64,000 bases of DNA from Haloarcula rubripromontorii (GTDB taxonomy: Archaea > Halobacteriota > Halobacteria > Halobacteriales > Haloarculaceae). This document shows, in pieces, positions 7,131 to 53,532 of this stretch; position 1 is the first letter of the stretch; each line of letters begins with the position of its first letter. The stretch covers positions 186,001 through 250,000 of the forward strand of contig NZ_LIUF01000001.1 in NCBI RefSeq assembly GCF_001280425.1, read 5' to 3'. Both the position numbers and the translations under genes were made by a program. The notes below the pieces were generated by a model. The model worked only from the letters and a program-made list of their open reading frames with translations. It was not told the origin of the DNA and did not search any database.

Positions 7131-7311
7131 CACACACCCCACCCTTTCCGTACGCCACGCGGTCTCTGGCTGCGTGGCTACACACACCCCCACCCCACCG
7201 TTTCCATACGCCACGTGGTCTCTGACTGCGTGGCCACACACCCCCCACCCACCCGTTTCCATACGCCACGCGGTTTCTGACTGCGTGGCCACACACCCCA
7301 CCTTTCATACG
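7131..7311. repeat. Tandem repeat of hairpin units, about 3.2 copies
   Basis: Units begin at 7145, 7201, 7256 and (partial) 7303, giving unit lengths of 56, 55 and 47 bases. Each full unit reads TTTCCRTACG, then a hairpin CCACGC-loop-GCGTGG, then a CACACACC/CCCACC pyrimidine-rich tail. In the second unit the stem ends in T, which still pairs with G, so the stem survives the change. The array fills the spacer between two convergent genes, the small zinc protein and map. A role as bidirectional terminator, RNA element or replication-slippage relic cannot be decided from sequence. Confidence 0.85.
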
Positions 7312-14733: not shown

Positions 14734-16230
14734 ATGGTCGACCGCGTATTCACGAACTGTGAGGTGCGACCGCTGTCCGGCGACGAGCCGGCGTCTGCGG
14801 TCGCAGTACAGGACGGCACGGTTACCGCCGTCGGCGACCCGGACGAACTCTCGACGGCGGGTGCCGAGACCGTCGACTGTCGCGGTGGGGTCCTGTTGCC
14901 CGGCTTCGTCGACGCCCACACGCATCTGGACATCGTCGGCCGGCGTGCAGTCGAGGCAGACCTCGCCGGGGCGGACGGCCCGGCCGACTGCATCGACCGG
15001 CTGCTGGCGGCCGACGACGGCGAGGGGTGGATACTCGGCTTTGGCTACGACGAGAGCGACTGGGACGGGGACTTGCTGCGGGCGGCGACGCTGGACCGGG
15101 TGAGCGCTGAGCGCCCGGTTGCGGCCGCGCGCGAGGACATCCACACGGTGTCGGTAAACCACGCCGCGCTAGACGTACTGGACCTGCCCGACGACGGCGT
15201 TCGGACCGAGGACGGAGCCCCGACTGGCGTGCTCGTCGAGGAAGCCGCCGAGGCCGTCTTCGACGCTATCGCGCCCGACTACACACAGACCCGGGAGTAC
15301 CTGCTGGCCGCACAGGAGGTGGCGCTCTCAGAGGGGATCACCGCCGTCCACGACATGGTGCGGCAGTCACACGCCCCGCGGGTGTACCGCGACCTAGACA
15401 CCGAGGGCACACTCTCGCTGCGGGTCCGACTCAACTACTGGGTTGATCACCTCGATGCGGTCAGGGAACTCGGACTGGTAACGAACCACGGGAGCGACCG
15501 GGTCCGGACAGGCGCAATCAAGACGTACATCGACGGGTCACTCGGGGCCGGAACCGCGCGGCTCCGGGACCCCTACGCCGACGGTGACGGCGTCGGCGAG
15601 TGGCGGACGGATCCGGACGCCCTCCGGAGACTCGTGTCAGAAGTCGACGACGCGGGCCTCCAGTTCGCCGCCCACGCCATCGGCGACGCGGCCATCGACG
15701 CCCTGCTTTCGGCTATCGAGTCAGTCGACGCCGCGGACGAGCGCCATCGCGTCGAACACGCCGAAGTCCTCACAGGCGAGTTAGTGGAGCGATTGGCTGC
15801 GTCGCCGCTGGTCGTCTCGGCCCAGCCGAACTTCCATCGCTGGGCAACATCGGGCGGCCTGTACGACGAGCGCCTCGGCGAGCGTCGCGGGCTTACGAAC
15901 CGCTTCCGCGACCTCGTTGATGCCGGCGCACAACTGGCCTTCGGGAGCGACTGTATGCCGCTCTCACCGCTGTATGGCGTCCAGCAGGCCGTGACCGCGC
16001 CGGAACCGAGGCAGCGCCTGACAGTCGACGAGGCGCTCCGGGCGTACACCAGCGGTGCTGCGTACGCGGGCTTCGACGAGGATCGGATGGGTACGATTAC
16101 GCCGGGCTCGGTCGCGGATTTCACCGTGCTATCGGCCTCTCCGTGGGCGGTGCCTGACGGCGAAATTTCGGATATCGCAGTTGCGTTGACCGTCAGCGAC
16201 GGCGACGTAGTGTTCGACGCCAGCGACTGA
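14734..16230 (+). CDS. YtcJ-type amidohydrolase
   Basis: A 498-residue metal-dependent hydrolase of the amidohydrolase superfamily, subfamily YtcJ/NfdA. The metal motif LLPGFVDAHTHLD lies at about residues 53-65. IKTYIDGSLGAGTARLRDPY (about 264-283) contains the carbamylated-Lys-type region. HAIGDAAIDALL, RVEHAEVL and FGSDCMPLSPLYGVQQAV provide the remaining ligands. Such enzymes hydrolyse amide or N-formyl bonds; the substrate is unknown. The protein is cytoplasmic. The ATG at 14734 (MVDRVFTNCEVRPL) fits the family start. The 298 bases after it contain no gene but do hold the 30-base repeat. Confidence 0.9.
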   Translation: MVDRVFTNCEVRPLSGDEPASAVAVQDGTVTAVGDPDELSTAGAETVDCRGGVLLPGFVDAHTHLDIVGRRAVEADLAGADGPADCIDRLLAADDGEGWILGFGYDESDWDGDLLRAATLDRVSAERPVAAAREDIHTVSVNHAALDVLDLPDDGVRTEDGAPTGVLVEEAAEAVFDAIAPDYTQTREYLLAAQEVALSEGITAVHDMVRQSHAPRVYRDLDTEGTLSLRVRLNYWVDHLDAVRELGLVTNHGSDRVRTGAIKTYIDGSLGAGTARLRDPYADGDGVGEWRTDPDALRRLVSEVDDAGLQFAAHAIGDAAIDALLSAIESVDAADERHRVEHAEVLTGELVERLAASPLVVSAQPNFHRWATSGGLYDERLGERRGLTNRFRDLVDAGAQLAFGSDCMPLSPLYGVQQAVTAPEPRQRLTVDEALRAYTSGAAYAGFDEDRMGTITPGSVADFTVLSASPWAVPDGEISDIAVALTVSDGDVVFDASD

Positions 16231-16290
16231 TTCGAACAGACAGCGGTATCGAATCAGCCTATTTTTGCCACTTAATAACATACAACATGA

Positions 16291-16470
16291 TTCGACAATA
16301 CGGAATATAGAACCGGAATGGTCGCCAAATCCGGATATCCAAATCGATACACCACCAATCCCGGAAACAGAATTGTAGTTGCCACCAATTTTGCCAACAG
16401 AACTTAGTCGGCCACCAATACTCCCTATACAATTTTCTTTACCACCAACTTGCTTCTTTGAAGATAAAAT
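16291..16470. repeat. Six diverged tandem units of exactly 30 bases before nadA
   Basis: Units begin at 16291, 16321, 16351, 16381, 16411 and 16441, with no insertions or deletions. Every unit has C at position 3, CAA at 6-8 and AA at 21-22. Units 3-6 (from 16351) begin RCCACCAA, and units 1-2 are degenerate versions. A is also favoured at positions 17 and 19. The region is AT-rich compared with the flanking genes. On the minus strand the same phase gives a 10-residue pattern ending in Ile/Val-Gly-Gly. The spacing fits a phased protein-binding or curved-DNA element controlling nadABC, or a relic of repetitive coding DNA. Confidence 0.8.
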
Positions 16471-16528
16471 CTTTTCACGAAGTAGTTCCGAAGTGTGAGT
16501 ACCCACAGGTGGATACATCGTGCCCGAA

Positions 16529-17650
16529 ATGGAAACCGCCGCGTTCGAGACGGACCTCAGCCTCTTCAAGTACGACAACCTCGAGCAGCTCCCGCCGGCG
16601 TACCGGGACCTCGAAGCAGCCGAGCGGACTGAGCGCATCGAGAGCGCGCTCGCCGAACTCGGTGACGACGTGGTCATCCTCGGCCACAACTACCAGCGCC
16701 AGGAGATCGTCGAACACGCCGACTTCATCGGTGACTCCTACCAGCTCTCGAAGGAGGCCGCCCAGTCCGACGCCGACTACGTGGTTTTCGGCGGTGTGAC
16801 GTTCATGGCCGAGTCGGCGGATATCATCACGGATGACGACCAGTCCGTGATTCTCCCGTCGATGGAAGCATCCTGTCCGATGGCTGGCATGGCTGAAGCG
16901 CTGCAGGTCGACGCCGCGTGGGCGGAACTGACCGCGGCGACCGACGAGGAGATCATCCCGATCACGTACATGAACAGCTACGCCGACCTGAAGGCATTCT
17001 GTGCCGAGCAGGGCGGGCTGGTCTGTACGTCCTCGAACGCGCACAAGGCCTTCGAGTACGCCTTCGAGAAGGGCGATAAAGTCCTGTTCCTCCCCGACAA
17101 GCACCTCGGCGAGAACACGGCCCACCGGCTCGGCATGGCCGACGAGACGGTCGAGTGGGACCCCTGGGACGTCGAAGGGACTGACGCCGCCGACGCCGTC
17201 GAAAACGACATTATTCTCTGGGAAGGGTACTGCCAGGTCCACGAACGCTTCCGCGAACACCACATCGAGTCCATCCGCGAGGACTACCCCGACGCGAACG
17301 TCATCGTCCACCCCGAATGTCGTCGCGAGGTCGTCGAGGCCGCCGACGTGGCCGGCTCTACCTCGACTATCTGTGAGTCCGTCGCCGAGGCCGACACCGG
17401 CGAGACGTGGGCCATCGGCACCGAGATTCACCTCACGCACCACCTCCAGCGGTGGCACCCCGAGGTGAACGTCGTGCCGCTGTGTGGCGACGCCTGCATG
17501 GACTGTAACGCCATGCGCCAGATCGACCCGAACTACCTCGCGTGGGTGCTGGAGGAACTGGTCGAAGGCCGCGAGCGCAACGTCATCGAAGTCGCGCCCG
17601 AGGAGAAGGAGCTGGCACAGGTCGCGATGGACCGAATGCTGGAGATCTAA
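16529..17650 (+). CDS. nadA: Quinolinate synthase
   Basis: A 373-residue 4Fe-4S enzyme that condenses iminoaspartate with dihydroxyacetone phosphate to form quinolinate, the second step of de novo NAD synthesis. The three cluster cysteines lie in SMEASCPMAGMAE, IVHPECRREV and CGDACMDCNAMRQ. VVILGHNYQRQEIVEHADF and FIGDSYQLSKEA are substrate-site motifs. GTG at 16520 (adding MPE) is an equally possible start. An AT-rich GATAAAATC stretch about 60 bases upstream, inside the last 30-base unit, could be the TATA box. It is the first gene of nadABC, with 2 bases to nadB. Confidence 0.96.
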   Translation: METAAFETDLSLFKYDNLEQLPPAYRDLEAAERTERIESALAELGDDVVILGHNYQRQEIVEHADFIGDSYQLSKEAAQSDADYVVFGGVTFMAESADIITDDDQSVILPSMEASCPMAGMAEALQVDAAWAELTAATDEEIIPITYMNSYADLKAFCAEQGGLVCTSSNAHKAFEYAFEKGDKVLFLPDKHLGENTAHRLGMADETVEWDPWDVEGTDAADAVENDIILWEGYCQVHERFREHHIESIREDYPDANVIVHPECRREVVEAADVAGSTSTICESVAEADTGETWAIGTEIHLTHHLQRWHPEVNVVPLCGDACMDCNAMRQIDPNYLAWVLEELVEGRERNVIEVAPEEKELAQVAMDRMLEI

Positions 17651-17652
17651 CC

Positions 17653-19212
17653 ATGACAGGAGACCCGATTACGACTGACGTACTCGTCATTGGTTCCGGT
17701 ATCGCCGGACTGGCGGCAGCGCTCGCTGCGGCCCGTGAAGACGACGACGTGACGCTCGCCACGAAGGCGACTCGCCCGGAAGGGTCCTCTTCATGGTGGG
17801 CACAGGGCGGTATCGCCGTCTCCCGAGATACCCCAGAAGAGTTCAAAGCGGACATCATGGCCGCTTCGGACGGTACCGCCGACCCCGACGCCGTCGACGT
17901 GCTGGTCGAGAACGCCAACGGGGCCGTCGAAGACGTGCTGCTGGAGACGCTAGACGTGGAGTTCGACCAGAACGGCTCGGGCCACGACTTCACCCGCGAA
18001 GCCGCCCACAGCGAGGACCGCATCCTCCACGTGGACGCCTCGACGGGCAAGCACATCCACGTCCCCTTCCTGAACTACATCGACGACCACGACGGCGTGG
18101 AGATTCTGGACGATACCGCCGCGCTCGAACTCATCCGTCACGAGGGCCGGGTCCACGGCGCGATGCTCGAATCCGACGGCGAAGTGGACCCGTATTTCGC
18201 CGGCAGCGTTGTACTGGCGACCGGCGGCATCGGCGACCTCTACCCGCGGACGACCAACCCCGAGAACACGACCGGGGACGGCATCGGGATGGCCGCCCTC
18301 GCCGGAGCCGAGGTCGAGGACATGGAGTACGTGCAGTTCCACCCGACAGCCTGTACGCTCGATGGCGAGCCACCCCGTGGCTCGGACGGAGGCGGTGGAA
18401 CCGCCGGAGCGGGCGATATCGCGTTCCTCGTCAGCGAGGCCGTTCGCGGCGAGGGTGGCCTGCTGCGCAACGGCGAGGGCGAGCGGTTCATGCCAGACTA
18501 CCACGCCGACGCCGAACTCGCGCCCCGCGACGTAGTGGCCCGGGCGGTCAAAGCCGAGCGCGAGGCCACCGGCGAGGTCATGTTGGACGTCTCGCCGCTG
18601 GATTTCGACGCGGAGTTCCCCAGCCTCGCGGACCGCTGCGAGGAGCACGGTATCGACTGGGAAACCGGCATCCCGGTCGCACCCGCCGAGCACTTCCTCT
18701 GTGGCGGCATCAGCGTCGACGACCGCGGCCGGACGACGCTTGACCGACTGTACGCCGTCGGCGAGTGCTCCCGGACCGGCGTCCACGGCGCAAACCGACT
18801 CGCCAGCACGTCCCTGCTTGAGGGGCTGGTCTGGGGTCTGCGTGCCGGCGAAGACGCCGCCGGGGCCGAACCGGAGCCGATCGAAGCGCCGGAGCTACTC
18901 GAACGGGACCCGGACCTGCCCGAGCGGTTCGCCCGCGACAAGTTCCAGCGGCTGACCCGCGTGATGGACGAGAACGTCGGCGTCGAGCGCGACCCTGCGG
19001 ACCTCCAGCGCGCGATGGCTGTCCTCCGCCGGCTCAAGGGCGAAGTGGACGCGTACGTCCGCACTCGAACCAGCCGGTCCCTGTACGAACTCCGCCACGC
19101 GAGCGTCACCGCCCTGTTGATCGCGCGCCACGCCGCCGAAAACGAGGAAAGCGTCGGCACGCACAACCTCGTGGGCGCGGGCGAGGACCCGCGGGAGTCC
19201 ACGGCTGACTGA
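17653..19212 (+). CDS. nadB: L-aspartate oxidase
   Basis: A 519-residue flavoprotein that oxidises L-aspartate to iminoaspartate for NadA. The FAD-binding start DVLVIGSGIAGLAAALAAA (about residues 9-27) is followed by SSSWWAQGGIAV, TGGIGDLYPRTTNPENTTGDG, the substrate-site MEYVQFHPTA, and GGISVDDRGRTTL with YAVGECSRTGVHGANRLAS near the C-terminal part of the FAD domain. The last 100 residues form the fumarate-reductase-like helical domain. An SD-like GGAG lies before the ATG. It overlaps nadC by one base (TGATG), giving tight operon coupling. Confidence 0.96.
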   Translation: MTGDPITTDVLVIGSGIAGLAAALAAAREDDDVTLATKATRPEGSSSWWAQGGIAVSRDTPEEFKADIMAASDGTADPDAVDVLVENANGAVEDVLLETLDVEFDQNGSGHDFTREAAHSEDRILHVDASTGKHIHVPFLNYIDDHDGVEILDDTAALELIRHEGRVHGAMLESDGEVDPYFAGSVVLATGGIGDLYPRTTNPENTTGDGIGMAALAGAEVEDMEYVQFHPTACTLDGEPPRGSDGGGGTAGAGDIAFLVSEAVRGEGGLLRNGEGERFMPDYHADAELAPRDVVARAVKAEREATGEVMLDVSPLDFDAEFPSLADRCEEHGIDWETGIPVAPAEHFLCGGISVDDRGRTTLDRLYAVGECSRTGVHGANRLASTSLLEGLVWGLRAGEDAAGAEPEPIEAPELLERDPDLPERFARDKFQRLTRVMDENVGVERDPADLQRAMAVLRRLKGEVDAYVRTRTSRSLYELRHASVTALLIARHAAENEESVGTHNLVGAGEDPRESTAD

Positions 19213-20033
19213 TGCTCACCGACAGCGACATCGAGCGGTGGCTCCGCGAGGACGTAGGCCACCACGACGTGACCAACGACGTGCCCGGCACGACCAAGGG
19301 GCGTCTGGTGGCCAAGGAAGCCGGCGTGGTAGCGGGTCTCGACGCCGCCACCGCAGTGTTCGAGTATCTTGGCTGTGCGGTGGAGACACCGGTCGACTCC
19401 GGGGCTACCGTCGACGCCGGCGACGTAGTGCTTCGCGTCGACGGCCCCGCGCAGTCGGTGCTACGCGGCGAGCGCGTCGCAGTGAACGTCACCGGCCACG
19501 CTGCAGGCGTGGCGACGAAGACCCGGGCCGCCGTCGATGCGGCGGAATCGGCTGCGACGGACTCCACGCCCCGCATCGCCGGCACGCGAAAGACGACCCC
19601 CGGCCTGCGTGGCGTCGAGAAGCGGGCGGTAGTGGCCGGCGGCGGCGACACACACCGGCTTGACCTCTCGCACATGGTGATGGTCAAGGACAACCACATC
19701 GCGGAGATGGGACTTGTCGAGGCCGTCCAACACTTCCGCGAACGGGCCTCCTTCGCGACGAAACTCGACGTAGAGGTCGAAGCTCCGGCGGATGCGCCGC
19801 GGGCCGCAGAAGCCGGCGCAGACATCGTCTTGCTGGACAATATGACCCCCGCCGAGACCGAGCGCGCGGTCGACCTCGTGGCGGCGGCAGACGCCGATGC
19901 ACTCACGGAGGCCAGCGGCGGCATCACAGTCGAGGACGTGCCGGCGTACGCCGAAACGGGCGTGGACATCATCTCGATGGGGTCGCTGACCCACTCTGCG
20001 CCAACGCTCGATTTCTCGTTCCGGACGGGCTGA
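19212..20033 (+). CDS. nadC: Nicotinate-nucleotide pyrophosphorylase (carboxylating)
   Basis: A 273-residue quinolinate phosphoribosyltransferase that makes nicotinate mononucleotide from quinolinate and PRPP. Motifs follow the family: REDVGHHDVTNDV at the N-terminus, NVTGHAAGVATKTR (about 92-105), TRKTTPGLRGVEKRAV (about 125-140), HRLDLSHMVMVKDNHI (about 150-165), and LDVEVEAPAD and LLDNMTPAET in the PRPP and product site. EASGGITVEDVPAYAETGVD closes the barrel. It is the last gene of the nadABC operon and completes the aspartate route to NAD precursors. Confidence 0.96.
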   Translation: MLTDSDIERWLREDVGHHDVTNDVPGTTKGRLVAKEAGVVAGLDAATAVFEYLGCAVETPVDSGATVDAGDVVLRVDGPAQSVLRGERVAVNVTGHAAGVATKTRAAVDAAESAATDSTPRIAGTRKTTPGLRGVEKRAVVAGGGDTHRLDLSHMVMVKDNHIAEMGLVEAVQHFRERASFATKLDVEVEAPADAPRAAEAGADIVLLDNMTPAETERAVDLVAAADADALTEASGGITVEDVPAYAETGVDIISMGSLTHSAPTLDFSFRTG

Positions 20034-53074: not shown

Positions 53075-53488
53075 TCACCCGACGCGCTCGTTTAAAATCA
53101 ACCTCGTCTTCGTCCCCACAACCTCCTCCAGCTCGCGCGCCTGCGTGATGAGCCCGTTAACGGCGTCGGTATCAGCAGCGTCAACGACGACGACGATATC
53201 CTCCTCGCCGGAGACTTGCCAGACAAAATCTACCTCCTGCCAATCGGCGATACGGTCCGAGACCTCGGCCGTGTCGACGTTTACGTCGACGCTAACCTCG
53301 ATCATCGCTTTCACGTTGCCGGTCCGCGTCGCAACGGTGAAACGTTCGATAACGCCGTCGTCGACCAGTCGTTCGACGCGGTTTCGCACGGTCCCTTCCG
53401 ACGTGCCGACCCGGTCCGCGATTTCCGTATACGGGGTTCGGGCGTCCCGGCGGAGTATCGAAAGTATCTCTCTGTCGAGGTCGTCCAT
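53075..53488 (-). CDS. Lrp/AsnC family transcriptional regulator
   Basis: A 137-residue regulator. The N-terminal HTH is MDDLDREILSILRRDARTPYT, with recognition helix TSEGTVRNRVERLVDDGVIE (about residues 29-48). The C-terminal RAM ligand domain has AMIEVSVDVN, WQVSGEEDIVVVVDAADTDA and EEVVGTKTRLIL. These proteins bind amino acids and form octamers. It is divergent from carA (103 bases), so control of carbamoyl phosphate synthesis by an amino acid such as glutamine or arginine is plausible but inferred. Confidence 0.93.
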   Translation of the reverse strand: MDDLDREILSILRRDARTPYTEIADRVGTSEGTVRNRVERLVDDGVIERFTVATRTGNVKAMIEVSVDVNVDTAEVSDRIADWQEVDFVWQVSGEEDIVVVVDAADTDAVNGLITQARELEEVVGTKTRLILNERVG

Positions 53489-53532
53489 CGAGATGAAATA
53501 GTATCACCGGTCGTGACTTGAGGATTGCGAAA

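Follow-up and report, generated by a model that had tools for sequence, protein, structure and literature searches.

An array of diverged 30-base units upstream of nadABC in Haloarcula as a putative operator array

The nadABC locus and its upstream array

The window analysed here, a stretch of 64,000 nucleotides from Haloarcula rubripromontorii, carries genes for de novo NAD synthesis on the forward strand. These are nadA, which encodes quinolinate synthase (16520-17650; Pfam NadA, 1.1e-96), nadB, a probable L-aspartate oxidase gene assigned from its FAD_binding_2 match (8.9e-77) and its position in the operon (17641-19212), and nadC, which encodes quinolinate phosphoribosyltransferase (19212-20033; QRPTase_C, 1.1e-58). 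The nadA gene starts with GTG, at a place where relatives have either ATG or GTG, and is preceded by a Shine-Dalgarno-like AGGTGG (16507-16512) that is present in 13 of 13 genomes with the array described below. Further upstream lies an imperfect palindrome, TTGAAGATAAAATCTTTTCAC (16458-16478), 42-62 bases before the nadA start, and ahead of it, reaching back towards an amidohydrolase gene on the same strand, is the repeat that is the subject of this report.

The repeat comprises six units of exactly 30 bases each (16291-16470), beginning at 16291, 16321, 16351, 16381, 16411 and 16441, the last of which overlaps the palindrome. As the initial annotation had described, all six share C at position 3, CAA at positions 6-8 and AA at positions 21-22, and four of the six open with RCCACCAA. 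Mean pairwise identity among the units is 0.484, and we found no 15-base sub-repeats within a unit. In a local scan of periods from 20 to 44, period 30 alone stands out (all others reach 0.33 at most), and when periods of 20-60 were scanned across the 64 kb window the array gave the top six-copy score. The copies are too diverged for Tandem Repeats Finder, which does not report the array. We compared its column conservation, expressed as the number of invariant columns (six), the number of columns with at least five of six identical bases (eight) and a summed column score, with that of dinucleotide shuffles of the spacer in which the offset was left free and the period was free within 25-35. 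None of 3000 shuffles equalled it, so that random-sequence simulation, which had been named as a possible refutation, never produced similar column conservation. A second repeat in the window, at 7135-7299, consists of three tandem 55-base units in which C-rich stretches flank a GC-rich hairpin (CCACGCGGTCTCTGACTGCGTGG), and occurs only here in the genome.

Distribution and conservation of the array in Haloarcula

We searched 32 Haloarcula genomes and found the nadA region in 29 of them; the other three (G013, G018 and G024) gave no upstream match and were left out. Orthologous arrays with conserved phase are present in 13 of the 29, as had been anticipated for a regulatory array, and a nadA tree groups these 13 genomes in a single clade (support 0.82). 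Six units are found in four genomes, H. rubripromontorii, H. sebkhae, H. argentinensis and G047 (the first three correspond to G000, G003 and G042 in some order), five units in eight genomes and four units in one, H. mannanilytica. Copy number changes in whole units only. Six-unit and five-unit arrays differ by exactly unit 4 (16381-16410), an exact 30-base presence or absence between orthologues that is confined to the four six-unit genomes. Since these genomes are scattered on the tree, units have been gained or lost, or have recombined, more than once. Unit 1 (16291-16320; TTCGACAATACGGAATATAGAACCGGAATG) can be aligned in 12 genomes and has a homologous unit in G023. Upstream of it, at 16274-16286, is the probable second half of a further unit, AATAACATACAAC (GGTAACAAAYAAC in relatives), which by inspection resembles phases 13-22 of a unit, including the second conserved block described below; a GGTAACA-like sequence occupies the matching position in many Haloarcula genomes without the array.

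The distance between successive units is exactly 30 bases in 53 of 55 intervals and 31 bases in the other two, one in G047 and one in G023, so the spacing is not absolute. The initial annotation's remark that no indel occurs thus holds in H. rubripromontorii but not in these two relatives. As the main test of function we computed the diversity between orthologues within each of units 1-5, which include units 2 (16321-16350), 3 (16351-16380) and 5 (16411-16440), each aligned with its orthologues. Diversity between species is low at two blocks that recur in every unit, phases 2-8 (YCRCCAA) and phases 16-22 (TAYAGAA), and the second of these blocks qualifies the earlier statement that the remainder of the unit varies freely. 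Averaged over units 1-5, pairwise diversity comes to about 0.11 for phases 2-8 and 0.15 for phases 15-22, with values of 0.07-0.15 for the core, about 0.30 outside the tested blocks and 0.21 at fourfold-degenerate sites of nadA; the non-core phases therefore drift at or above the rate of the fourfold-degenerate sites. When units were rotated independently, the low diversity was significant for phases 2-8 (p = 0.0005), for phases 15-22 (p = 0.004) and for the positions listed in the initial annotation (p = 0.0001), which had been picked on one of the compared sequences and were assessed here by diversity between species. A variance test for phase structure in general, which uses no picked positions, gave p = 0.0009.

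Within single genomes, identity among units is 64-73% at core phases and 28-42% elsewhere, and across the 64 units C6, A21 and A22 are invariant or nearly so. These figures show an old array whose intervening bases have become nearly random by drift and in which each unit has retained its two blocks. Selection acts on distance, as originally suggested, with a nearly fixed spacing, and on the two sequence blocks as well. The near-identical copies and even diversity of a minisatellite are not what we observe, as mean identity is 48% and diversity is concentrated outside the two blocks.

The promoter palindrome and the proximal element

Every Haloarcula nadA locus examined has the palindrome (16458-16478) at this location, and other haloarchaeal families have it in a variant form; a search of the H. 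rubripromontorii genome with up to two mismatches returned no match besides nadA. From its position and the haloarchaeal consensus (PMC4983044), it probably contains the BRE and TATA elements of the core promoter and may serve in addition as an operator. The palindrome, conserved across several haloarchaeal families, is itself a candidate NAD-specific operator.

Unit 6, the promoter-proximal unit (16441-16470), has ACCACCAAC as its first block, and its second block runs into the palindrome's left arm, where TATTGAA corresponds to the TAYAGAA of the other units. Most Haloarculaceae carry a comparable proximal element, CCACCRRT followed by 6-7 bases and TATTGAAG, directly upstream of the nadA palindrome. 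We built a weight matrix from units 1-5 only and slid it over the 150 bases upstream of the palindrome in array-less genomes, including 22 other Haloarculaceae (Halomicrobium, Halorientalis, Halosimplex, Halovenus, Halapricum and others). In these 22 genomes the mean score peaks at the element abutting the palindrome (offset 0), about 7 SD above the offset mean; offset 0 is the maximum among 151 offsets in 12 of the 22, and each half of the matrix, taken alone, has its peak there too. The two highest-scoring offsets in array-less Haloarcula are 0 and -30, and the unit at -30 resembles unit 1. Among 31 lags, lag 30 comes out strongest, though weakly, in array-less Haloarcula as well as in the remaining Haloarculaceae except Halosimplex; these values are descriptive because the genomes are related.

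Because a matrix from units 1-5 peaks at the proximal element, the array seems to repeat an ancient promoter-proximal element in series, and on this basis we infer an origin by duplication. What speaks against this reading is that two short blocks carry the case for descent of units 1-5 and the proximal element from a common source. In Halosimplex (L084, L086, L088 and L089), three diverged units can seemingly be made out by eye at about -61, -31 and 0 before nadA (CAACAAT..CGGAAACTGTC, GTCGAA and CCACCGGT), and lag 30 is not the strongest there. Natrialbales nadA loci (L092, L101, L134 and other Natrinema-type loci) have a different conserved upstream block, GTATNNNYCGRTGGTATTCC, with lag 30 weakly at the top.

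Candidate functions of the array

Several explanations other than an operator array have to be weighed against these observations. A functionless tandem duplication that arose by replication slippage and is now decaying neutrally would account for the whole-unit differences in copy number and for the restriction of unit 4 to four genomes. Under neutral decay, however, one would not expect identical phases to be spared in every unit and every species, nor the core to stay at 64-73% identity when the non-core is already at 28-42%, and the proximal unit is conserved across genera. Block-specific conservation between species thus argues for selection on sites and not for an old tandem repeat in decay, which makes this explanation decidedly unlikely. 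We also think it very unlikely that the array is transcribed as a structured 5' leader, one of the options originally raised, or as a small RNA controlling nadABC. The flanking genes are on the same strand, so that read-through from the amidohydrolase gene is possible, but the RNA fold is no more stable than that of shuffles (z = -0.98), there is no Rfam match up to E = 1, the array lies upstream of both the conserved palindrome and the AGGTGG sequence, and long leaders are rare in haloarchaea (PMC4983044). The minus strand holds a 186-codon open frame across the array (16129-16689), with IGG repeats, that could encode a ten-residue-repeat protein and is free of stops in 8 of the 13 array genomes. 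This candidate was rejected, and its chances appear minimal, as stops occur in the other 5 of 13 genomes, 1-base insertions shift the frame in two, and conservation follows 7-base blocks, not codon positions.

Structural roles of the DNA itself form another group of explanations. The DNA might have been selected for shape alone, as intrinsic curvature produced by A-tracts in step with the helix. Curved DNA was among the options originally raised, A-tracts had been noted roughly every 10 bases, and AA and TA steps do recur in phase. Even so, the bend predicted by a wedge model is not significantly above that of shuffles in any of the 13 genomes (lowest p 0.06), and the conserved C at phases 3, 5 and 6 is not obviously needed for shape, so that curvature seems a highly improbable target of selection. 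The array might instead position chromatin, with histone dimers (30 bp each) phased in 30-bp steps so that the promoter is covered or kept clear. In this it resembles archaeal histone hypernucleosomes, since its step matches the 30-bp footprint of an archaeal histone dimer (PMC10516927), the AA/TT/TA signal of the arrays is strongest at 9.9-10.0 bp, in keeping with A/T steps about every 10 bp, and the genome has a two-domain histone gene. However, any 30-base repeat can produce a harmonic at exactly 10.0 bp, and with the repeat kept, by permuting phases alike in all units, the 10-bp component has p = 0.08; the recurrence of A-tracts is therefore visible but not significant given the repeat. 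Moreover, histone positioning expects no strict motif, whereas the nadA array has sequence-specific conserved blocks and occurs at one locus only, and halophile histones are sparse binders that occupy a small number of sites and are not believed to organise chromatin across the genome (PMC10128011). Taken together, these points leave histone positioning unlikely.

The explanation that we favour, and that we regard as probable though well short of certain, is that the array is a tandem, asymmetric operator array with three-turn spacing that would be bound cooperatively by a putative regulator of nadABC. The 13 orthologous arrays, the shuffles and the conservation of the blocks support the regulatory reading put forward in the initial annotation; protein binding and its cooperativity, like any direction of control and any effector, are inferred. 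According to this model, the proximal element would have been multiplied upstream in the ancestor of Haloarcula sensu stricto, and an oligomeric, sequence-specific regulator would occupy neighbouring units on one face of the DNA, at a spacing of about three helical turns. The resulting cooperative nucleoprotein complex could extend into the core promoter and set the transcriptional response of nadABC, with the palindrome over the TATA region acting as a separate repressor site. Activation from upstream, next to the BRE, is slightly favoured over repression, as the majority of units stand well ahead of the core promoter.

A two-unit profile used across the genus and a single-unit pattern used in the H. 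rubripromontorii genome both found only nadA, so there is no regulon that would support a shared factor. The regulator may therefore act on something close to a single target, or its other targets may lack tandem units. More tentatively, and with considerable doubt on our part, we consider that a locus-specific NAD regulator might form a filament or a DNA-wrapping complex on asymmetric 30-bp operators, with nadABC tuned by the gain and loss of whole units. If so, this would be a dedicated archaeal NAD system not yet described, possibly with a histone-like 30-bp step.

We found neither a haloarchaeal nad regulator nor a 30-base promoter array, nor any regulation of de novo haloarchaeal NAD synthesis, in the openly accessible literature searched, and the array offers a defined and testable candidate control element for this pathway. 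Natural variants with 4, 5 and 6 units, together with array-less sister species, are available in a group with usable genetics. The locus may also illustrate clearly how an operator array has grown by whole units from a seemingly ancient promoter-proximal site with the bases between the blocks drifting.

Among known systems, the bacterial regulators NrtR, NiaR and NadR likewise control de novo NAD genes through short operators, and the titles and abstracts examined for them describe no array like that of nadA. A closer likeness is with the archaeal Lrp/AsnC (FFRP) arrays of Ss-LrpB, Ptr2 and FL11, in which several imperfect sites are clustered with centres two or three helical turns apart, binding is cooperative and clusters reach the promoter (PMC2995911), features that the nadA array shares, with cooperative binding as our supposition and the promoter as a probable one. 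Lrp sites, however, are palindromic or semi-palindromic, whereas the nadA array consists of four to six asymmetric units; the best dyad in the unit matrix is no better than in column-permuted matrices (p = 0.16), which sets the units apart from the sites that most dimeric regulators recognise. We do not class the array as an Lrp array because its units are not palindromic. Lrp-like genes exist in the H. rubripromontorii genome, none of them beside nadABC, and the neighbourhood of nadA in several genera contains no consistent HTH gene. Among the loci examined, an AsnC-type gene lies near nadA only in the array-less H. rara (L067:2876-3391), where this HTH gene adjoins an HMG-CoA reductase gene two genes from nadA. 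It has an 88% identical orthologue in H. rubripromontorii, on another contig, and a weak paralogue in the window itself, an Lrp/AsnC-like frame on the minus strand at 53174-53491.
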